NCBI RefSeq assembly: GCF_007859305.1
Contig: NZ_VOHE01000001.1
Location: 62,001 to 126,000 of the forward strand
DNA: 64,000 nt
From: Luteimonas wenzhouensis
GTDB taxonomy: Bacteria; Pseudomonadota; Gammaproteobacteria; Xanthomonadales; Xanthomonadaceae
Reading direction: 5' to 3'
The notes under the pieces were generated by a model. It was not told the DNA's origin. It worked only from the letters and a program-made list of their open reading frames with translations, and made no database searches. This document shows, piece by piece, positions 36,584 to 45,038 of this stretch. The first letter of the stretch is position 1. Each line of letters starts with the position of its first letter. Position numbers and translations under genes: made by a program.

Positions 36584-36659
<76 letters not shown>

Positions 36660-36693
36660 TTTCACTGTCCGCGGCAGTCCGCAGACGTTCGCC

Positions 36694-36741
36694 AAGGGCC
36701 TGATTTTCAAGGGAAATCCCGAGAAATCAGGCCCTTTTTGT
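36694..36741 (+). terminator. Terminator just inside the element's left end
   Basis: A 13-bp perfect stem AAGGGCCTGATTT (36694-36706) / AAATCAGGCCCTT (36724-36736) followed by TTT makes a strong rho-independent terminator 35 nt after the tRNA. It supplies the tRNA with a terminator in place of the native one now displaced to 45058. The loop contains GGGAAATCCC. Confidence 0.8.
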
Positions 36742-36772
36742 TTGCGGGCGTCCGTGGGCGTCCGTTGCAATC

Positions 36773-36841
36773 TGGGGGCATTTGGGGGCATAACTGGGGG
36801 CATCGGCCACCCCGGCCAGACTGGATGCCCCCAGATGCCCC
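36773..36841. repeat. Left arm-type repeats (TGGGGGCAT)
   Basis: Three direct copies of TGGGGGCAT start at 36773, 36783 and 36795. An inverted copy ATGCCCCCA lies at 36825 and a partial one at 36835, overlapping the integrase start codon. Matching copies lie near the right end, so they are candidate integrase arm sites that may also repress int. Confidence 0.65.
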
Positions 36842-38031
36842 TCTCCGATGTCGTCATCCGCAAGGCCAAGCCCACGGGCAAGACGCAACGCCTGTTCGAC
36901 GGCGGCGGCCTGTACCTGGAGATCACCCCAGCCGGTTCCAAGCTGTGGCGCCAGAAGTATCGCTACGGCGGAAAGGAGAAGCGGCTCGCGCACGGCACCT
37001 ATCCCGAGGTCAGTCTGGCCGAGGCCCGCGCCCGACGCGAGGCCGCGCGCCGCCTGCTGGCGAACGGGATCGACCCCAGCGAGCACAAGAAGGCAGAGAA
37101 GGCGGCGGGCGAGGAACGGGCCGCCAACAACTTCGAGGCCGTCGCCCGCGAGTGGCACGGCAAATTCTCCAAGGGCTGGGCCAAGTCGCACGCCGACAAG
37201 ATCATGGGCCGACTGGAGAACGACCTGTTCCCGTGGATCGGCACCCGCCCCGTCGCCGAGATCAAGGCGCCCGAGCTGCTGCGCTGCCTGCGCAGGATCG
37301 AGAGCCGCGGCGCACTGGAGACCGCGCACCGCGTCCTGCAGAACGCTGGGCAGGTGTTCCGCTACGCCATCGCCACCGGGCGCGCCGACCGCGACCCGTC
37401 CGCCGACCTGCGCGGTGCCCTCGCCCCGTGGAGGCCCCAGCACTACCCTGCCCCGACCGATCCGAAAGCCGTGGGCGAGCTGCTGCGCGCGATTGACGGC
37501 TATTCCGGCGGCAACGTGGTCAAGGCCATGCTGCGGCTGGCCCCGTTGGTGTTCGTGCGCCCCGGCGAGCTGCGCCAGATGGAATGGGCCGAGATCGACT
37601 TCGACGCCGCGGAATGGAACATCCCGGCGCACAAGATGAAGATGCGCGAGCCGCATCTGGTGCCCCTGTCCCGGCAGGCCCTCGCCATCCTGAAAGACCT
37701 GCACCCCCTGACCGGCAACCGCGCCTACGTATTCCCCGGCGGCCACGACCCGCGCAAGCCGATGAGCGAGAACGCGCTGAATGCCGCCCTGCGGCGCATG
37801 GGCTACGACAAGGCCACGATGACCGCCCACGGCTTCCGGGCCATCGCGCGCACGCTGCTGGACGAGGAATTGAAGTTCCGGCCCGACTACATCGAGCACC
37901 AACTGGCGCACGCCGTGAAGGATCCGAACGGACGCGCCTACAACCGCACCAGCCACCTGGCCGAACGCCGCAAGATGATGCAAGTGTGGGCCGACTACCT
38001 GGACAGCCTGCGCGAGGGGGGCAAGCGATGA
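36835..38031 (+). CDS. int: P4-type tyrosine integrase
   Basis: A 398-residue site-specific recombinase. The N-terminal arm-binding domain begins VIRKAKPTGKTQRLFDGGGL, typical of P4/CP4-57 integrases (DUF4102). Catalytic residues are visible: Arg in VFVRPGELRQMEW, HGFR, HQLAH and Tyr in AYNRTSHLAERRKMMQVWADYL. It catalyses insertion at the tRNA-Ala gene. ATG 36835 is chosen by homology; an upstream in-frame ATG at 36742 would read through the arm repeats. Its stop overlaps the next gene as ATGA. Confidence 0.93.
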   Translation: MPLSDVVIRKAKPTGKTQRLFDGGGLYLEITPAGSKLWRQKYRYGGKEKRLAHGTYPEVSLAEARARREAARRLLANGIDPSEHKKAEKAAGEERAANNFEAVAREWHGKFSKGWAKSHADKIMGRLENDLFPWIGTRPVAEIKAPELLRCLRRIESRGALETAHRVLQNAGQVFRYAIATGRADRDPSADLRGALAPWRPQHYPAPTDPKAVGELLRAIDGYSGGNVVKAMLRLAPLVFVRPGELRQMEWAEIDFDAAEWNIPAHKMKMREPHLVPLSRQALAILKDLHPLTGNRAYVFPGGHDPRKPMSENALNAALRRMGYDKATMTAHGFRAIARTLLDEELKFRPDYIEHQLAHAVKDPNGRAYNRTSHLAERRKMMQVWADYLDSLREGGKR

Positions 38032-38651
38032 ACGCGAAGGACAAGGGAGCGAGCGGACTGCCACTGGATTTGGCAGGGGTTGATTTTTTCACTAAGGCGC
38101 GCGGCGTGCTCAATGATCGATGGCGGGAGTTGTCGGAAAAGTATCAGGTAGATGGGGGGTTCAGCTATTCGCAAGTGGCTGCTGCGAATGACACGCTAGA
38201 GCAGCTCTTTCGCGGTCAAATCGATAGGGACAAATTTCGCGAAGCCATCGAAGATGCAGTAGATATTATTCTGCTGTCGCACGTACAGTCGTTAGACAAG
38301 AACGAAAAAAACGCGGCAAGCGACCTTCACGGTCACATAGTCGGCACACTTCGGATCAACGCACTAACACCTGCAATGACTGAGCTATTGGTGGCGATGC
38401 ATGCTGCGTTGCGGTTGGGCCTGCCAGCCGATGCTGCCACCCTTACTAAGCCGCCAAGCGGGCGGCCTTCCAACGCAGAAAGGGACCGCGCGGTCATTCG
38501 GTACATGCAGGGCGAGGATCGGATGCGCGAGCTTATGGCCGCCGCAGGAACGCCCGGCGCATGGCGCAGCAAAGCCGAGAGCTACAAAGAAGCGGCGCGC
38601 ATCTTTGGGCTAAGCGTCAAGACGATTCGGAACATTTGCGCCAGGAGCTAA
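38028..38651 (+). CDS. Unknown element protein with C-terminal HTH
   Basis: A 207-residue protein I do not recognise. The C-terminal region has SGRPSNAERDRAVIRYMQG and then ESYKEAARIFGLSVKTIRNI, which looks like a helix-turn-helix. The N-terminal half is helical and acidic. From about 38085 on the base composition is clearly lower in GC than the rest of the window (TTT, ATT and AAA codons), so this gene was probably acquired separately. It starts as ATGA with int. Confidence 0.75.
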   Translation: MNAKDKGASGLPLDLAGVDFFTKARGVLNDRWRELSEKYQVDGGFSYSQVAAANDTLEQLFRGQIDRDKFREAIEDAVDIILLSHVQSLDKNEKNAASDLHGHIVGTLRINALTPAMTELLVAMHAALRLGLPADAATLTKPPSGRPSNAERDRAVIRYMQGEDRMRELMAAAGTPGAWRSKAESYKEAARIFGLSVKTIRNICARS

Positions 38652-38665
38652 ACGGAAACTGAATT

Positions 38666-38693
38666 TCCCGGAAAGGGGTGAATTTTTCCGGGA
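38666..38693. promoter_or_regulatory. Inverted repeat before the AlpA-like gene
   Basis: TCCCGGAAA and TTTCCGGGA form a 9-bp dyad with a 10-nt centre in the 102-nt gap between the HTH gene and the AlpA-like gene. It could be an operator or a terminator for the first two genes. Confidence 0.5.
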
Positions 38694-38753
38694 TATTGGC
38701 AAGACCCAGTCTGTCGCCCGGCCCGCACGCGTTCGCGGGCATGGAGACGGACG

Positions 38754-38951
38754 GTGAAAAACACAAGCGAACACAGGGAATTCGGGCCCTTCATCCCGGA
38801 ATGCACCAAGCGCGGCATCGGCAGGACGAAAGCATACGAGCTGGCGAACGCCGGACTGCTTGAAACCTTCAGCATCGGCACGAAGCGATACGTCTTTCTG
38901 GACAGCCTGCTGAGCCTGCCTGAGCGCCTCGCGCAGCGAGGTGCGGCATGA
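38754..38951 (+). CDS. AlpA/excisionase-like DNA-binding protein
   Basis: A 65-residue protein with the MerR-like winged-helix pattern of AlpA and excisionases: RGIGRTKAYELANAGLLETF followed by a beta wing IGTKRYVFLDSL. These proteins activate excision or early transcription in satellites. The start is GTG 38754 with GGAGA upstream. It overlaps the next gene as ATGA. Confidence 0.75.
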   Translation: MKNTSEHREFGPFIPECTKRGIGRTKAYELANAGLLETFSIGTKRYVFLDSLLSLPERLAQRGAA

Positions 38952-39475
38952 CGACCATGCAACGAAAAGCCCCGGCGTGCGGGCCGGGGCTAGAGGAAGC
39001 AAACGCAGGCAGGCGCTGGCTCCATGCGGATTATGCCACCGCAGAACCCTTGTTGCAACGTCTCGAGGGCGTCCAGAAATCCGGCAACGGCTGGCGGGCG
39101 CGCTGTCCGTCCTGCGGCGGCAAGTCCCGCAAGGTCGCCATTGCCGAGCGCGACGGCAAAGTCCTGCTGCACTGTTTCGGCGGCTGCAAGGCCATCGAGG
39201 TGCTGGAGGCGGTCGGCCTGACCTGGGCGGACATCATGCCGCCTAGGACGTGGCCGGAGTCGCCGGAGGAACGCAGGCAGGCGCGCAGGGCGCTCCGGGA
39301 GGCTAGCTGGGCCGCCGCGCTGTCCGTGCTGGCCGTCGAGGCGACGATTGTCCGCCTGGCGTCGGCGCAGCTGGCCCGCTGGCAGCAGCTGACCGAGGAA
39401 GACGACGCGCGGCTTGCGTTGGCGTGCGAACGTATCGACAAGGCAGCCGCCGTGCTGGTGGAGGCTGGCCGATGA
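38948..39475 (+). CDS. Primase-type zinc-finger protein
   Basis: A 175-residue protein whose first 90 residues hold a CHC2-like zinc finger (ARCPSCGGKSRKVAI, then LLHCFGGCKAIEVLEAVGL), as in phage and P4-type primases. No toprim or catalytic domain follows; the second half is helical. It may provide only the DNA-recognition part of a primase or work with the ATPase encoded next. It overlaps both neighbours as ATGA. Confidence 0.75.
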   Translation: MTTMQRKAPACGPGLEEANAGRRWLHADYATAEPLLQRLEGVQKSGNGWRARCPSCGGKSRKVAIAERDGKVLLHCFGGCKAIEVLEAVGLTWADIMPPRTWPESPEERRQARRALREASWAAALSVLAVEATIVRLASAQLARWQQLTEEDDARLALACERIDKAAAVLVEAGR

Positions 39476-40653
39476 GCGCGACAATCGAAGAGCAGGCGCG
39501 CGCGGCACTCGATGGCGTGCGGCTGACGCCGGCCAGTGCGATCCGGTGCCAGCCGATCCGGTGGCTTTGGCCGGGCTGGCTGGCGCGGGGGAAGCTGCAC
39601 ATCTTCGCGGGCGCACCCGGCACCGGCAAGACAACGGCCGCCCTTGCGCTGGCGGCGACGATCACGCGCGGCGGAAGGTGGCCTGACGGCACCGTGGCGC
39701 CACCTGGGCGCGTCCTGGTCTGGTCGGGCGAGGATGACGCCGCCGATACGCTGGTGCCGCGCCTGCGTGCCGCTGGTGCCGACCTGGACCGCGTGCTGAT
39801 CGTCGGCGACGCGCTGACGGATGACGAACCCCGCCCGTTCGATCCGGCGCAGGATCTGGCCGCGCTGGAATGGCAGCTCGAGCGCTGCGACGACGTGGCG
39901 TTGATGATCGCCGACCCCGTGGTGAGCGCCGTTGCCGGCGACAGTCACAAAAACGTCGAAGTCAGACGGGCGCTTCAGCCTCTGGTGAATCTGGGGCAGC
40001 GGCTGGACTGTGCGGTGCTGGGTATCAGTCACTTCACCAAAGGATCGGCTGGCCGCGATCCAACCGAGCGCGTGACCGGATCGATTGCCTTCGGGGCGCT
40101 GGCCCGCGTGGTGCTGGTCGCCGCCAAGGGTGAGGACGGCAGCCGGCTGCTTGCGCGTGCCAAGTCGAACATCGGCCCGGACGGCGGCGGCTATCGCTAC
40201 ACCCTGGAGCAAGTCGACATCGGCGACATGGAGGCGTCGAGGGTGTCGTGGGGCGAGGCGCTGGAGGGCACCGCACGCGAACTGCTTGGGGCTGCCGAGC
40301 AGCAGGACGACGAACATGTTGAACAGCGCGATGCCGCCGACTGGTTGAAAGAGGTGCTGTCTGCGGGGCCTATGCCGGTCAAGGACGTGAAGAAGCAGGC
40401 GGACGAAGCAGGTTTCGCGTGGCGAACTGTTCAAAGGGCAATGCGCCGAGCAGGGGTCGATTCTCGGCGGGGTGGATTCGGTCAACCGGCCACATGGCGA
40501 CTGTGCAGTCGCGCCAGTGAATCCACAGTCGCGCCATTCGCGCCACACTCTGAGAGTGGCGCAACTGGCGCGACTGACGCCACCGTGACCGACATAGCAG
40601 CCATGCGGGAACGCATCTTGGCCCGTTTCGGGGGTGCCGACGATGAGCGCTGA
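39472..40653 (+). CDS. RepA-like AAA ATPase/helicase
   Basis: A 393-residue RecA-fold protein of the RepA/DnaB-like class. Walker A is GAPGTGKTT near residues 44-52, Walker B is VALMIADP, and LGISHFTKGSAG and RVTGSIAFGALARVVLV fit the hexameric helicase core. The C-terminal 100 residues include a winged-helix-like PMPVKDVKKQADEAGFAWRTVQRA. It likely drives replication of the element after induction. Confidence 0.85.
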   Translation: MSATIEEQARAALDGVRLTPASAIRCQPIRWLWPGWLARGKLHIFAGAPGTGKTTAALALAATITRGGRWPDGTVAPPGRVLVWSGEDDAADTLVPRLRAAGADLDRVLIVGDALTDDEPRPFDPAQDLAALEWQLERCDDVALMIADPVVSAVAGDSHKNVEVRRALQPLVNLGQRLDCAVLGISHFTKGSAGRDPTERVTGSIAFGALARVVLVAAKGEDGSRLLARAKSNIGPDGGGYRYTLEQVDIGDMEASRVSWGEALEGTARELLGAAEQQDDEHVEQRDAADWLKEVLSAGPMPVKDVKKQADEAGFAWRTVQRAMRRAGVDSRRGGFGQPATWRLCSRASESTVAPFAPHSESGATGATDATVTDIAAMRERILARFGGADDER

Positions 40654-40882
40654 TCGTGATGTCGCCGCCATGCTGTTCGATGCCTGCCTGACCGCCGGCG
40701 TCGATCCCGAGGTCGCATTCGGGCACCTGGACGACATGGACGTCGCCGAATACGGGCGCGCGATTCGCGAGAGTTGGTTTCCCGCCGATCACTTGCCACG
40801 GTTCATGCGTTCACTGTCCGAGTCCATCGCCGCCGGGCGCTGCCTCTGCCCGCGATGCCGGGCGGAAAGGGGGCAGCCATGA
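40643..40882 (+). CDS. Small acidic protein with C-terminal CxxC
   Basis: A 79-residue protein of unknown role overlapping the ATPase gene by 11 nt. It ends with RCLCPRCRAERG, a possible half zinc site. Start at ATG 40643 is preferred over an upstream codon. Confidence 0.6.
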   Translation: MSADRDVAAMLFDACLTAGVDPEVAFGHLDDMDVAEYGRAIRESWFPADHLPRFMRSLSESIAAGRCLCPRCRAERGQP

Positions 40883-41310
40883 GCGCACTCCCCGTTCCCG
40901 CCGCTGCCGCCGCGCTGGGCGTTTCTGTGCCGACACTGAAGCGGTGGATTGGGCGCGGCGCACCCGTGGCTCGTCGAGGTCGCCGCGGGCGTGGCTGTCG
41001 GACGCTGATTGACCCCGAGGCCATCCTCGCGTGGCGGGCGGCGCAAGACGCCGACCGCGCGCAGGTCGAGGCGGCGCTGCGCGCCCTGGCGGGGCGCATC
41101 CCCGAGCTGTTGGCGGATGCGGCTGCTGAGGCGTTCCGGCTGGCACCGGACAAACGCGGCGCTGCGTGGACCGCCTGCGCGGCTTGGCAGCTCTCGCTGG
41201 CCGCTGTGCTCGATGACCTGCGGGCGTGCGGCGCTGAGATCAACGATCCCGACACGATCCCCGAACCCATCGAGCGCTTACGGAAAATCGCAAGCCTGCG
41301 ATCTATTTAG
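40879..41310 (+). CDS. Nu1-like helix-turn-helix protein
   Basis: A 143-residue protein with an N-terminal MerR-type HTH (AAAALGVSVPTLKRWIGRGAPV) and a helical remainder. This resembles lambda gpNu1-type terminase small subunits, which recognise the packaging site, but simple regulators share the same fold. It starts as ATGA with the preceding gene and is the last gene before the capsid gene. Confidence 0.6.
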   Translation: MSALPVPAAAAALGVSVPTLKRWIGRGAPVARRGRRGRGCRTLIDPEAILAWRAAQDADRAQVEAALRALAGRIPELLADAAAEAFRLAPDKRGAAWTACAAWQLSLAAVLDDLRACGAEINDPDTIPEPIERLRKIASLRSI

Positions 41311-41375
41311 CCCGAGATGCGTAACATTGTCTTACGACTGCCGTGATGGCAGCCATTCCCAGAAGGAGGAAAAAC

Positions 41376-42371
41376 ATGATGCACGATCCAATCCACGCCG
41401 CGCGGCTTAGCCTTGCGCGGAATTCCATCGACGCCCTGATCGGTAATCAAACCGAGAAGGCCGCCGCGTTCACCGATCTGGCTTGGGCGCTGCTGCACGC
41501 GAAGCAGCCCGGTTCGAGCCTGAAGGCGCTGCAAAACTGCGGCAACGCGCTTGTTCGGAAGGCTGCCGCGCACGCTTTGGCCGATGAGGTATGGGAAAAC
41601 GGCGGCGCCGACCTCGCCGCCAGTTATCTTGCGAGCATTGCGGAGCTTTCGATTATCGACTCCGCGAAGAAATACGCGCGCGTCCTGCCTACGAACTCGC
41701 GCAGCGTCATGATTGCGGCTGATGCTGTGGGCGACGTGGTGGCCGAGGGGCACCCGAAGCCGGTGAAGCGCTTGTCACTGTCCCTCTCCGACCTGGAGCC
41801 GACGAAGGCTGTCGGCATGGTCGTCTTGACCGAGGAGCTGGCCACCGCCGCTGGCCCTGAAGGGCGGCGACTTTTCGAGGCCGAGCTGGCTGCTGCCGTC
41901 ACGCGCGCGTCGAACGCGTCGATCCTGTCGGCACTTGCGGACTCGGACGCGGTCACCGTACCGGGCACGGGCGATCCGCTGGCGGACCTGCGCGCAGGGC
42001 TGCAAGCTGCCGGGCCGTCGGACGGTTACGTTGTCGCCATGCCGTCCGGCGCCGTCGCCGACCTCGCCACCCGCGTCGAGAATCGAGGCGGCATGGGCGT
42101 GCGCGGCGGCACCTTCGTGCCGGGAGTCGAGGTTGTCGCTGTCGATGACGCCACGGCAATCACCGTCATTCCCGCGTCGCGCATCGCGCTTTGGGATGGC
42201 GGCCTGCGGGTGAGCAGCGCCGAGCATGCAACTGTTGATATGCGCGACACCCCGGAGTCGGAGGCCGAGCTGGTGAGCCTGTGGCAGACCAATTGTCTGG
42301 GCCTGATGCTGGAGCGCCAGTGGCACCTCGCGCAGGCGGACAGCGTGGCGGTTGTCGAGCTGGAGAGCTGA
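41376..42371 (+). CDS. HK97-fold major capsid protein
   Basis: A 331-residue protein whose residues 100-331 follow HK97-type capsid proteins: VVAEGHPKPVKRLSLSLSD, LEPTKAVGMVVLTEELA, a helical spine around FEAELAAAVTRASNASIL and the A-domain segment AITVIPASRIALWDGGL. The first 100 residues are helical and could be a scaffolding delta region removed by the protease. The start is set by a very strong ribosome site (AAGGAGG, 6 nt before ATG 41376). The 65-nt gap upstream has a small CTGCC/GGCAG hairpin and may hold a late promoter. Confidence 0.85.
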   Translation: MMHDPIHAARLSLARNSIDALIGNQTEKAAAFTDLAWALLHAKQPGSSLKALQNCGNALVRKAAAHALADEVWENGGADLAASYLASIAELSIIDSAKKYARVLPTNSRSVMIAADAVGDVVAEGHPKPVKRLSLSLSDLEPTKAVGMVVLTEELATAAGPEGRRLFEAELAAAVTRASNASILSALADSDAVTVPGTGDPLADLRAGLQAAGPSDGYVVAMPSGAVADLATRVENRGGMGVRGGTFVPGVEVVAVDDATAITVIPASRIALWDGGLRVSSAEHATVDMRDTPESEAELVSLWQTNCLGLMLERQWHLAQADSVAVVELES

Positions 42372-42372
42372 C

Positions 42373-43488
42373 ATGTCGCGCACGCATGAAACCTTTCTGC
42401 GGGTGAAGTCTGCGGAATCCAGCGACGGCGAGCGCTGGATTACCGCATGGGCGACCACGCCAGACGAAGATCTGGAAGGGGACGTGGTAGTCCCCACCGG
42501 GGCAAAGTACACGCTGCCTTTGCCACTGTTGGCCTACCACCGACACGATGCCCCCGTGGGCGTCGTGACGGAGGCGCACGTAAGCGAGCAAGGCATCCGC
42601 ATCCGCGCCAAGCTGTCCAAGGGCGTGCAGCTTGCGGAGGAACTTTGGACCCTGATCCGCGATGGTGCCGTGGCTGCTGTGAGCATCGGCTTTCACTCGC
42701 TGAAGGCCAAGCCGCGAGCAAGTGGCGGGCTTCTGTTTGAAGCCTGGCGCTGGCTGGAACTGAGTTTGACCCCGGTTCCTGCCAACCCCAATGCCCGCAT
42801 CATCCACGTGGGCAAGGCGATTGCCTACGCTGCGGAAGATTGCGCGGCCGACATTGCGCCGGAGCCTGTCAAGGTGAAGCGGGCCATCCTTAGCGACGCG
42901 GCCGAGTTCGCACAGCGGAGCGCTAAAGACCGTAACTGGGCCGAGTACGAAGGTATGACCGCCGCGTATAACGCAGCGGTCGAGCTGTTGCCGCCCGAGG
43001 ACCGGGACAGGTGCGACCTGACGCGGGCGACGTGGGACGCCAAGGCTTACCGGATGACCCTGCGGGACTGCATTGGTCGACTAGTTGCCGTTGTCGAGGA
43101 CGACGGGACTGTGCGCCGTGACGAGCCGGAGCCGAAGCGAAAGGAGGTGCCAGATTCCGACAGGCTCACGCCCGCGCAGCTCGCGCAGGTCAAGCGGATG
43201 CTGGGGGAACTGGCCCACGCCGTGGGCGTAGCAATCGGGAAGGTAGTCAACGAGACCGACCAGCGACTGGCGCAAGCCATCGTGCAGGTGGCCGACAAGG
43301 TGGACCGCTTGGAAGAGACGGCGCTGTTCGATGCTGGGTACTTTGCCGAGGGCAAGGAGTATCGAAAAGGCGCGCTGGTGGTGCACGACGGCCGGACGTG
43401 GTTGGCCACCGAGGCCACGGACACGACCCCATCGCGCGAGAACAGGGCCTGGCGAATGCTGGCAAAGCGAACGGAGACTAGGGCATGA
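42373..43488 (+). CDS. Prohead protease with C-terminal extension
   Basis: A 371-residue protein. Residues 1-150 match HK97 prohead proteases (U35): LLAYHRHDAPVGVV with catalytic His, AVAAVSIGFHSLKA with catalytic Ser, and WLELSLTPVPANPNA. After a long linker and coiled-coil-like helix (about 255-310), the last 55 residues (KEYRKGALVVHDGRTWLATE, then WRMLAKR) resemble the small carbohydrate-binding V/XII-type module found in phage structural proteins. It should mature the capsid protein encoded just upstream, a reverse of the usual protease-capsid order. GGAGAG precedes ATG 42373. Confidence 0.87.
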   Translation: MSRTHETFLRVKSAESSDGERWITAWATTPDEDLEGDVVVPTGAKYTLPLPLLAYHRHDAPVGVVTEAHVSEQGIRIRAKLSKGVQLAEELWTLIRDGAVAAVSIGFHSLKAKPRASGGLLFEAWRWLELSLTPVPANPNARIIHVGKAIAYAAEDCAADIAPEPVKVKRAILSDAAEFAQRSAKDRNWAEYEGMTAAYNAAVELLPPEDRDRCDLTRATWDAKAYRMTLRDCIGRLVAVVEDDGTVRRDEPEPKRKEVPDSDRLTPAQLAQVKRMLGELAHAVGVAIGKVVNETDQRLAQAIVQVADKVDRLEETALFDAGYFAEGKEYRKGALVVHDGRTWLATEATDTTPSRENRAWRMLAKRTETRA

Positions 43489-43805
43489 GTGATTGGCACG
43501 AACTGTCCGCGGCTGACGTGGAGCTGGTGAAGTCCTGCGGGCCCGGCGAGGTTTGCTGGCTGTGGGGTGACGAGCTGGTGAAGACCACAACACAGCAGCT
43601 GGAGGCGGCCCTGGAGGTCGCCTTCAAGGAAGCTTATGCGGCGGCGCTGAAGCTGGGCGCGGACTTCATCGGCGAGGAGCACACCTTCGAGGTTGACGAC
43701 CTGGAGCCGGGCGCGGTGTACCTGCGCGTCATCATCCGCAACGAACAGGGAGACGAGGCCAGCGGCATTGGCATGATCCCGCGCCCGTCAATGGAGGTGC
43801 ATTGA
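43485..43805 (+). CDS. Unknown structural-region protein
   Basis: A 106-residue acidic protein with no recognised motif. It has helical AALEVAFKEAYAAALKLGA and a beta-rich FEVDDLEPGAVYLRVIIRN. It overlaps the protease gene as ATGA. A decoration or connector role is possible from position only. Confidence 0.6.
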   Translation: MSDWHELSAADVELVKSCGPGEVCWLWGDELVKTTTQQLEAALEVAFKEAYAAALKLGADFIGEEHTFEVDDLEPGAVYLRVIIRNEQGDEASGIGMIPRPSMEVH

Positions 43806-44005
43806 TGCGGTTTGGTCCCGTTGCCCGGCTGAGTCCGGCCGAGTATGCGCGGTTTCAGCGGCTGGTCAGGATGGCCGCCCGCAAGCGGGCAAGGGTGGAG
43901 CGCCCCGAGGTCGAGGGCGAAACATTCCGCCTGCTGCGGAACGGGGAAGTCCTGGCCGAGTCCGAGCACATGGACCTGATCCAGCGCGTCCTGATGGACC
44001 TTTAA
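43805..44005 (+). CDS. Unknown small basic protein
   Basis: A 66-residue protein, basic in the first half (RMAARKRARVERP), then FRLLRNGEVLAESEHMDL. Its ATG shares one base with the previous stop. No family recognised. Confidence 0.55.
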   Translation: MRFGPVARLSPAEYARFQRLVRMAARKRARVERPEVEGETFRLLRNGEVLAESEHMDLIQRVLMDL

Positions 44006-44011
44006 CGGTTT

Positions 44012-44037
44012 GGCTGCGTCAGTGCACGGGCGCAGCC
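44012..44037 (+). other. Hairpin in the only long gap of the late region
   Basis: GGCTGCG/CGCAGCC with a 12-nt loop, followed by a G9 run. It lies in the 145-nt gap before the small-terminase gene. It may be a terminator or part of a packaging site. Confidence 0.35.
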
Positions 44038-44150
44038 TGACCCCACCGGGGGGGGGTGTCGGCGAATTGAGGCGCGGACCGCTGGACACCGCCGCCCGGA
44101 CCTTTCTTTAGCCGAAATGCCCGCTCCCTTTGAAATATTCGGAGGACAAT

Positions 44151-44471
44151 ATGGCCAAGAGACAACCCCGCGACACCCTGCCAACGCATATCGCACAGTG
44201 GCGGGACCAGGTACGGCGGGACTACGGAATCGAGGATGCCCCCGGCCTGATCCTGTTGGAACAGGCGGCACTCGCGCTGCACCGGGCGGAACAGGCCCGC
44301 GAACTGCTAGCCAAAGATGGGCTAGTGACGCGCGATCGATTCGACCAACCCAAGCCGCACCCCGCCGCCGTCATTGCACGCGATGCGGAGGCCAGCTTTC
44401 GGGCCGCACTGCGCGATCTTCAACTTGACGTTGAGCCGGCGCGCCCCGTGGGCCGCCCGCCTGGAGTATGA
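44151..44471 (+). CDS. P27-like terminase small subunit
   Basis: A 106-residue protein. GLVTRDRFDQPKPHPAAVIARDAEASFRAALRDLQL follows the P27 small-terminase pattern (a Gly-x-hydrophobic turn, conserved Pro-Ala, then a helical tail with an LxL/DL end), shown here split as GLVTRDRFDQ and HPAAVIARDAEASF. The family selects DNA for packaging together with a large subunit. A strong GGAGGA precedes ATG 44151. No large terminase is in the element. Confidence 0.65.
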   Translation: MAKRQPRDTLPTHIAQWRDQVRRDYGIEDAPGLILLEQAALALHRAEQARELLAKDGLVTRDRFDQPKPHPAAVIARDAEASFRAALRDLQLDVEPARPVGRPPGV

Positions 44472-44701
44472 GCATGAAGAGGAAGCCCCGTATTCCGAGC
44501 CGGACCCGAATCACGCCAGCCGCCGTGGAGGCATACCGCGCCGGCAATCGGCTGGAACTGCACCGGGCATTGAACCTGCCGCCCTGGCAGGCGTCGCCGC
44601 TGGACGCCGTGGGCGCCTGCCCGTGGCCGCCGTCAACCGCTGGCGGCCGGACCTGGGCCAAGGCCCAGGAGCTTCGAGGGGCGCTGACATGCGCAGGGTG
44701 A
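44468..44701 (+). CDS. Small basic element protein
   Basis: A 77-residue protein starting as ATGA with the terminase-like gene (a second ATG follows two codons later). RITPAAVEAYRAGNRLELHR and LPPWQASPLDA resemble small phage proteins of unknown function found near packaging genes. Confidence 0.55.
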   Translation: MSMKRKPRIPSRTRITPAAVEAYRAGNRLELHRALNLPPWQASPLDAVGACPWPPSTAGGRTWAKAQELRGALTCAG

Positions 44702-44973
44702 AGCGTTCCCGGCAGCCCAGGCCGGACACCCTGACCGCCGCGTGGATCGACGGCGACCCGCCGCCTGCGGAGGCGGCCGAGGACAAGGACCGCCTGGTCG
44801 GCCTGATCTTCTTCGGCGAGCACCCGCCCAAGCGGTGGAAGGGGCCGCATCACCCGCACCAAAGGGCCTGGCTGGACGCGTTGGCGGACCTATCATGCTG
44901 CCGCCCACTATCCGCAGCAGTCCGCCCGCAACCGGACTATCTGGGGGCATCCGTGGGGGCATCCGAGCTTTGA
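44689..44973 (+). CDS. Last gene of the element, unknown
   Basis: A 94-residue protein, very basic at the start (MRRVKRSRQPRP), then DRLVGLIFFGEHPPKRWKGP. The last 25 residues are encoded by the right arm repeats and are likely non-conserved. It overlaps the previous gene by 13 nt. Confidence 0.5.
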   Translation: MRRVKRSRQPRPDTLTAAWIDGDPPPAEAAEDKDRLVGLIFFGEHPPKRWKGPHHPHQRAWLDALADLSCCRPLSAAVRPQPDYLGASVGASEL

Positions 44974-45005
44974 GACTTGCGCAAATCCGCGCAAATCAGG
45001 CCCTT
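44911..45005. repeat. Right-end repeats of the element
   Basis: TCCGCAGCAGTCCGC (44911), TGGGGGCAT twice (44942, 44954), GCGCAAATC twice (44979, 44989) and AAATCAGGCCCTT (44993). The first, second and fourth recur near the left end at 36668 (14 of 15), 36773-36803 and 36724, all in direct orientation. Confidence 0.75.
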
Positions 45006-45023
45006 GCAGGCATCGTTTGAGCG

Positions 45024-45038
45024 TCCCTGGCTCCACCA
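45024..45038 (+). other. attR core
   Basis: TCCCTGGCTCCACCA, identical to the tRNA-Ala 3' end at 36645-36659. Confidence 0.9.

Follow-up and report, generated by a model that had tools for sequence, protein, structure and literature searches.

A small PICI-like phage satellite with its own capsid and prohead protease genes in a tRNA-Ala gene of Luteimonas wenzhouensis

The window analysed here is a 64,000-nt stretch of Luteimonas wenzhouensis DNA (GCF_007859305.1, NZ_VOHE01000001.1 positions 62,001–126,000, forward strand), and all coordinates refer to it. An island of 8,379 bp (36,660–45,038) lies in a tRNA-Ala (CGC) gene found by ARAGORN at 36584–36659 on the plus strand, the end of which (36645–36659) is the attL core. 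A copy of the tRNA 3′ end at 45015–45038, on the same strand, forms attR; 21 of its 24 bases are like those of the tRNA gene, and the last 15 (TCCCTGGCTCCACCA) are identical. Besides this repeat, empty sites define the borders. In five of seven same-genus loci examined (L153 and L155–L158), the tRNA gene is directly joined to the right flank, and the flank in L153 and L155 starts exactly at the counterpart of window base 45015. In L154 some 300 bp of additional sequence separate tRNA and right flank, with no such island, and the same-genus locus L159 contains a related integrase. G+C inside the island is 0.66, compared with 0.68–0.76 in the rest of the window (2-kb steps). Moreover, GGGGGCAT repeats occur at the left end (36774–36832; copies at 36774, 36784 and 36796, inverted copy at 36825) and at the right end (44943–44962; copies at 44943 and 44955). 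All five plus-strand copies in the 64-kb window, and one of four minus-strand copies, are located at these two ends, and the left-end repeats are probably arm sites of the integrase.

All genes of the island are on the plus strand, and all frames are open, as the first-pass annotation had stated. The P4-type tyrosine integrase (398 aa, 36835–38031; PF13356, PF22022, PF00589) is followed by a 207-aa protein with a C-terminal HTH (38028–38651; HTH_28 4.2e-6), which among called genes of unassigned function is the longest in the island, and by a 65-aa AlpA-like regulator or excisionase (38754–38951), called from its position and from an HTH_17 match below cut-off (E 0.0084), and weakly resembling short HTH-encoding genes in L022 and L023 (E 0.002 and 2.8e-4). 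Replication genes comprise a primase zinc-ribbon protein (38948–39475; phrog_6088 2e-7; homologues in L021 and L026) and a RepA-type ATPase/helicase (39472–40653; AAA_25 1.2e-38, above cut-off) with 63% identity to L026 and 52% to L021. A 79-aa protein supported by gene call only (40643–40882) and a Nu1-like, MerR-type HTH protein (40879–41310; phrog_57 9.7e-7; Phage_Nu1 2.5e-4, below cut-off) precede the capsid gene; the latter, with 48% identity to L017 and 40% to L018, may be either a terminase small subunit or a regulator. Downstream of the protease gene lie a conserved 106-aa protein (43485–43805; 37% identical to its counterpart in island L178), a 66-aa gene call (43805–44005), a 106-aa protein like P27-family terminase small subunits (44151–44471; phrog_83 1.8e-6; PF05119 8.2e-5 and TIGR01558 below cut-off; 40–44% identity to L022, L023, L027 and L101), a 77-aa protein (44468–44701; 50% over 30 aa to L026, in matching position) and a 94-aa protein missed by the gene caller and found by translation (44689–44973; 34% to L026). 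The element thus appears to carry one or two small-terminase-like proteins. The TerS and AlpA calls stay below curated cut-offs, a point against the PICI-like reading given below.

The capsid gene (41376–42371), whose start at 41376 is preceded by a ribosome-binding site, encodes 331 aa. Searched by itself, its product matched nothing in Pfam or NCBIfam at E≤1; against phrog_617 it scored 3.2e-4, and its profile matched PDB capsid proteins with a best E of 1.8e-19. AlphaFold with 70 sequences gave pLDDT 79 and pTM 0.78, and prediction from the single sequence gave pLDDT 42. The 50 Foldseek matches listed were all shells of phages, satellites, GTAs or encapsulins (probability 1.00, best E 1.1e-10), with TM-scores of about 0.3–0.45 by query length. 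Encapsulins are HK97-fold shells without a scaffold. Profile and predicted fold together firmly support the HK97 fold. Satellite capsid proteins begin 92–100 residues into the protein of a prophage relative, so that the N-terminal scaffold region is absent from this short form; 60 of 81 capsid frames in viral contigs were 613–693 aa, the size of the phrog_617 protease-scaffold-capsid fusions. Long frames of this type, of 556 and 678 aa, also occur in two same-genus genomes (G1019 and G1023). In tblastn against 50,697 phage records the capsid protein had no match at 1e-5, a first viral-contig scan with the single sequence gave no relative, and megablast against plasmids gave no match. The class-wide search had hits in 6 of 369 genomes (the window's own and five others), with partial matches in frames of 244–621 aa.

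The next gene (371 aa, 42373–43488; Peptidase_S78 1.9e-9, above cut-off) is not a protease alone, as it had been called at first: its S78 domain covers residues ~1–150, after which come a coiled-coil-like region and then a tail resembling CBM5/12. TIGR01543 matched at 8.9e-13, below cut-off, and the H, S and E, which we take to be the catalytic residues, are identical in all eight aligned proteases. With tblastn, 294 phage records matched, all below 60% identity; the ten matches listed covered 36–37% of the query, in the S78 domain only. No other S78 protease exists in the genome. The HK97-fold capsid and prohead protease calls of the first-pass annotation are both upheld.

By gene inventory and profile scans, the element contains no large terminase, portal, tail, HNH or connector gene, and no lysis gene was recognised. 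Together with the borders and empty sites, these scans bear out the earlier description of a small tRNA-Ala satellite with its own capsid and protease and no motor, portal or tail. A resident helper was sought with one portal and three terminase families (PF04860, PF03354, PF03237, PF05876). None of them matched in this genome, although among 14 control genomes the searches were positive in 3 to 6. Psu had no Pfam match among the 14 proteins scanned, in which the island differs from P4. To our knowledge, P4 has no capsid gene. Common to both are a P4-type integrase at a tRNA gene, an AlpA/Vis-like protein (putative in the island) and replication genes (for P4, in part from PMC6092414).

From its gene content, the element is best described as a PICI-like phage satellite. 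Like Gram-negative PICIs, it has its own integrase and an att site separate from a prophage, as well as primase and replication genes (phrog_6088, AAA_25). A candidate for their AlpA- or MerR-type regulator is the AlpA-like protein, with which position and relatives would agree. With EcCICFT073 and PmCI172 it shares, according to the descriptions in PMC6092414 and PMC10111431, the integrase, primase/replication genes, a putative AlpA-like regulator, capsid homologue and, in some cases, TerS; unlike them, it adds a prohead protease, and its host belongs to the family of Pseudoxanthomonas. Its 8,379 bp fall outside the 10–20 kb given for Gram-negative PICIs in PMC10111431, a descriptive range, and it is therefore called PICI-like. 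The earlier assumption that a capsid gene distinguishes it from most PICIs is not supported: in Gram-negative PICIs capsid genes are a known and frequent feature, present in 21 of 29 reference elements, and are described as not required for transfer (PMC10111431). Deletion of the EcCICFT073 capsid gene is reported to leave transfer unaffected (PMC6092414; PMC10111431), and interference persisted too. A precedent for a change of head size is PmCI172, which has a gene for a capsid homologue and whose heads are small (PMC6092414). The capsid protein here is akin to phrog_617; those of enterobacterial satellites are, by description in PMC10111431, kin of lambda E.

Two systems allow closer comparison. 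Under the definition given in PMC10690885, capsid-forming PICIs (cf-PICIs) have capsid and head protease genes, which the island has, and portal, head-tail connector, large terminase and HNH genes, which it does not, and assignment as a full cf-PICI was rejected. A complete cf-PICI, L160, occupies the same tRNA-Ala in another same-genus genome, with an integrase 89–90% identical (89% in amino acids to that of the window, dN/dS 0.09). Both elements have capsid, protease, terminase small subunit and an AlpA-like gene, the last putative in the window island; only L160 has portal, HNH, TerL and head-closure protein. Its TerS is of another family (phrog_5601), and its capsid protein (416 aa) is only distantly alike (profile E 1.9e-7). 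The second is SaPIbov5, whose capsid homologue Ccm is the best-studied satellite capsid protein. As described in PMC8569155, T=4 heads have pentamers of Ccm and hexamers of helper CP, and in the absence of helper Ccm did not assemble into capsids. Ccm resembles the island protein as a satellite-encoded HK97-fold capsid homologue with an N-terminal region shorter than that of the helper (PMC8569155). Ccm carries an 87-residue delta domain (PMC8569155), to which the ~60-residue helical N-terminus of the island protein may or may not correspond. For SaPIbov5 no protease was identified, and in the island a link of the capsid protein to head size is putative.

Ten further islands, picked for a short capsid protein of the same family, are bounded by att repeats and measure 9.1–12.0 kb; of 15 loci searched for such repeats, the other five (L145, L020, L026, L087 and L078) had none that were found. 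Gene calls in relatives came from a codon-usage script. The window island is the smallest of the eleven (8.4–12.0 kb), in agreement with the very small size remarked on earlier. No large terminase was recognisable in the ten by BLAST to three TerL references and by inventory; L146 has a 541-aa protein without Pfam or PHROG match at 0.001. Some relatives add protease, portal or tape-measure genes, and the names tape measure, portal, TerL and protease were upheld on renewed check. Protease is labelled in three of the eleven bounded islands and is therefore dispensable to such islands. In the relative L178, a capsid gene was not recognised although a protease is present, and sister island L142 has a portal split over two frames. 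A capsid gene followed by an S78 protease, without recognised TerL, also occurs in L143 and L146, and again in L087, a viral contig that is not att-bounded and has a tape-measure gene as well; a unique combination of genes was accordingly rejected. Compact architecture recurs at several tRNA genes. In the loci examined, no full prophage was found to contain this gene set, a finding that would have refuted the first reading; distant capsid and protease relatives do occur in full prophage (L024/L025). The protease count, L178 and the lack of effect of the EcCICFT073 deletion are points against head-size switching.

In the capsid tree, satellite proteins lie on one side of a branch and 34 phage proteins on the other (support 100/97), with sampling that is biased because similarity to a satellite profile, with one peptide pattern, decided which phage sequences entered (at least 600 stretches in the scan, best 80 of 488 kept). 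The 34 rows (12 hand-picked, 22 random) come from 66, or 76 before near-copies were dropped. Satellite rows are author-chosen short forms in small islands, several not att-bounded; 19 of 23 were used, without the four on long branches, and the cf-PICI outgroup was omitted too. With all 23 the split was kept (SH-aLRT 96), and long-branch rows were flagged in both trees. On this tree, the scattered presence of protease is explained by 4 changes, that of portal by 2 and that of tape measure by 4. Satellite capsid genes are under purifying selection in all eight close pairs, which are not independent (dN/dS 0.045–0.213). Selection was measured in these close relatives; the window gene was compared with distant ones only, giving 0.36–0.37 against L017 and L018 (0.29 between those two), with synonymous sites near saturation.

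An element with its own shell protein and shell protease, and without motor, entry pore and tail, most likely mixes these parts with those of a helper phage. We give a probability of about one half to a PICI-like satellite whose capsid protein co-assembles with that of the helper into a smaller head, by analogy with Ccm. Upon entry of a helper phage, the satellite would excise and replicate, and its P27-like TerS would pass satellite DNA to the helper large terminase. Satellite and helper capsid proteins would then form a mixed, smaller head on the helper portal, as with SaPIbov5 Ccm, and the satellite protease may aid its maturation. Such a head would favour the 8-kb genome at the cost of the helper. 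In favour of this reading are the element borders with their empty sites, the capsid fold and its short form, purifying selection and the satellite side of the capsid tree, the ten att-bounded islands of the same capsid family, and the precedents of Ccm and PmCI172.

That the satellite builds its shell alone, from the short capsid protein and its own protease, and depends on a helper just for portal, motor and tail, seems rather unlikely to us. In favour, the element has open frames for both capsid and protease, the tree shows a capsid lineage made up of satellites, and scaffold-less encapsulins are among the best fold matches. However, the scaffold region is absent, protease is unlabelled in eight of eleven bounded islands, and Ccm is described as making only pentamers, with no capsids in the absence of helper (PMC8569155); the earlier proposal of a satellite-built head is thereby doubtful. 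It is also unlikely, by a similar judgement, that capsid and protease serve only to interfere, by poisoning or slowing the assembly of helper heads, or are chance acquisitions, with satellite DNA carried as concatemers in ordinary helper heads. Unchanged transfer after the EcCICFT073 deletion, as reported in PMC6092414 and PMC10111431, points this way, although interference also persisted, and so do the partial head and tail gene sets that vary among islands; the purifying selection seen in all close pairs of capsid genes tested argues against it. A decayed prophage remnant with few head genes kept would fit the lack of recognised motor, portal, tail and lysis genes and the split L142 portal, but is very improbable given both att sites, open frames, empty sites, the recurrent compact architecture, the capsid proteins branching apart and the low dN/dS of related genes, and a defective prophage with disrupted genes, lost att and relaxed selection was rejected.

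Beyond co-assembly with a helper, we tentatively propose a long-lived, satellite-only capsid lineage that dropped its scaffold domain and may have evolved in tRNA islands apart from phages. Its proteins might form small heads alone or sit at pentamers, in free combination with protease, portal and tape measure, such that head size, and perhaps tail length in some members, would be determined by satellite subunits on the helper's motor. In Gram-negative PICIs capsid genes are common and, in EcCICFT073, dispensable, and it becomes testable whether the capsid proteins of satellites switch head size or build shells with a graded series of islands in one bacterial order, with short capsid only, with added protease, with added portal, and with portal and tape measure. 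The end member of the series is a complete cf-PICI at this tRNA gene, with a very similar integrase.

The satellite island (36660–45038; 8,379 bp) lies on contig 1 of a 3.44-Mb host genome and starts directly after a tRNA-Ala(CGC) gene (36584–36659), whose 3′ end is repeated at 45015–45038 with the final 15 bases identical. Its G+C content is 0.66, versus 0.68–0.76 elsewhere in the window. The right flank directly abuts the tRNA in five of seven same-genus loci examined; the other two have about 300 bp extra in one case and a related integrase in the other. Within the 64-kb window, GGGGGCAT has five plus-strand copies, each at one of the element's two ends; of the four copies of its reverse complement, one lies at the left end. 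We infer that the GGGGGCAT copies at the ends are probably integrase arm sites. All 14 island frames are on the plus strand, in the order integrase, 207-aa HTH protein, AlpA-like protein, primase zinc ribbon, RepA-type ATPase, 79-aa protein, Nu1-like protein, capsid protein, protease, 106- and 66-aa proteins, P27-like protein, and 77- and 94-aa proteins.

Identification of the capsid protein depends on profile and structure. A single-sequence search gave a weak match only (phrog_617, 3.2e-4), and Pfam and NCBIfam gave no match at E≤1. However, the profile retrieved capsid proteins from PDB sequences (best E 1.8e-19), and the AlphaFold model built with 70 sequences (pLDDT 79, pTM 0.78) gave Foldseek hits of probability 1.00 to phage capsids of the HK97 fold and to encapsulins. 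The H, S and E of the protease are common to seven other aligned proteases; its C-terminal half has a coiled-coil-like stretch followed by a CBM5/12-like end. The two halves of this protease match two adjoining genes of another island (L178:234-11121), where the integrase is of the window's type (71%) and both protease and tape-measure genes are present, but no capsid gene was recognised.

Across the order, 15 of 397 genomes had a match to the capsid protein; matches to its profile were found in 25 of 395 family genomes and 6 of 369 class genomes, the window's own genome included each time. Eight family matches, in seven genomes, cover the profile nearly completely with frames of ≤393 aa. The remaining 18 have frames of 405–815 aa, and the two of these inspected (L024 and L025) sit inside prophages that have genes for TerL, protease and portal as well as tail-type genes. 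The satellite form is short at its N-terminus: the part found there in L024 and L025 is present in none of eight satellites aligned, and the start, fixed in six satellite proteins, lies 92–100 residues later than in L024. In the window gene a ribosome-binding site precedes the shorter start. In HK97-type proteins the scaffold is an N-terminal domain (PMC6893505). Among 81 capsid frames in viral contigs, 60 have 613–693 aa, the length of phrog_617 protease-scaffold-capsid fusions, and 10 have 463–579 aa; the window protease and capsid protein match opposite ends of these fusions. Some 60 helical residues are left ahead of the capsid core and may or may not form a small delta domain.

In eight of eight close pairs of satellite capsid genes, with members overlapping between pairs, dN/dS was 0.045–0.213; the window gene has distant pairs only (0.36–0.37). 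In the capsid tree one branch parts 19 satellite from 34 phage proteins (support 100/97; 96 with all 23 satellite rows), under a biased sampling in which phage rows were picked by likeness to the satellite profile (best 80 of 488) and satellite rows by their short form.

Eleven islands, the window's included, were delimited by att repeats; they were selected for a short capsid gene, so all carry one. One repeat overlaps a tRNA gene in 10 of them: tRNA-Ala in the window (8.4 kb), tRNA-Thr in L017 (9.2 kb), tRNA-Val in L018 (10.6 kb) and L142 (12.0 kb), tRNA-Ser in L023 (10.2 kb) and L021 (10.0 kb), tRNA-Pro in L027 (9.7 kb) and L144 (10.6 kb), tRNA-Cys in L146 (9.1 kb) and tRNA-Met in L143 (10.4 kb). 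The eleventh, L022 (9.5 kb), has a 19-bp repeat 55 bp from tRNA-Ser. None of the 11 has a recognisable TerL; a protease is present in three (window, L143, L146), a portal in four (L017, L018, L144, L142) and a tape-measure gene in three (L018, L142, L144). The L142 portal is split into frames of 207 and 580 aa (L142:10772-13398). Tape-measure genes also accompany a short capsid gene in the small islands L161 and L087, and in islands of this kind head size and tail length may both be set by the satellite.

Other gene kits use the same tRNA-Ala. L160, in genome G284, has an integrase 89–90% identical to the window's, an AlpA-like gene, a 416-aa capsid protein, S78 protease, portal, HNH, terminase small subunit, TerL and head-closure protein, which is the capsid-forming PICI set as given in PMC10690885. 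In L161 (genome G1042) a similar integrase is accompanied by a short capsid gene and by a tape-measure protein of 1,133 aa; two integrase genes, one just 155 aa, stand there in tandem (L161:1275-2959).

Having a capsid gene but no motor is already known, since 21 of 29 reference Gram-negative PICIs carry capsid genes (PMC10111431). Literature searches on satellites with capsid, protease, portal or tape measure, on partial sets and on this bacterial family brought up no title or displayed abstract that describes this lineage. Insertion, gene content and conservation of the island are what the sequence shows. Induction would depend on a helper and be followed by satellite replication, satellite TerS may package with the helper's TerL, and heads may be mixed from satellite and helper capsid proteins. 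Of the proven models, Ccm of SaPIbov5 comes closest: Ccm forms the pentamers and the helper protein the hexamers of a T=4 head, and without the helper Ccm formed no capsids (PMC8569155). Extension of this model to other satellites is weakened because deletion of the EcCICFT073 capsid gene left transfer and interference both unchanged (PMC6092414). In the window's genome, searches found no portal (PF04860) or terminase (PF03354, PF03237, PF05876) match, and the sole S78 protease is the island's own; hence the helper probably comes in by infection or is a phage whose genes belong to other families.

A further arrangement resembles the helper-embedded PICIs of enterobacteria. In it, a phage protease-capsid gene is in two pieces, with TerL upstream and portal downstream, and between the pieces lies a satellite that carries an integrase, a short capsid gene of its own and a tape-measure-like gene (L078:4984-20662); the short stretches searched contained no 14-bp att repeat. 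One genome (G920) carries two islands of this short-capsid kind, L144 and L145, with capsid genes of 92% aa identity. L019:1-19901 differs from its close relative L021 in that its capsid module is inverted with respect to the integrase. The distal end of L021 holds ThsA and ThsB (Thoeris; L021:11190-12595), with homologues in L019, and L022 encodes an AAA ATPase with defence-type matches.
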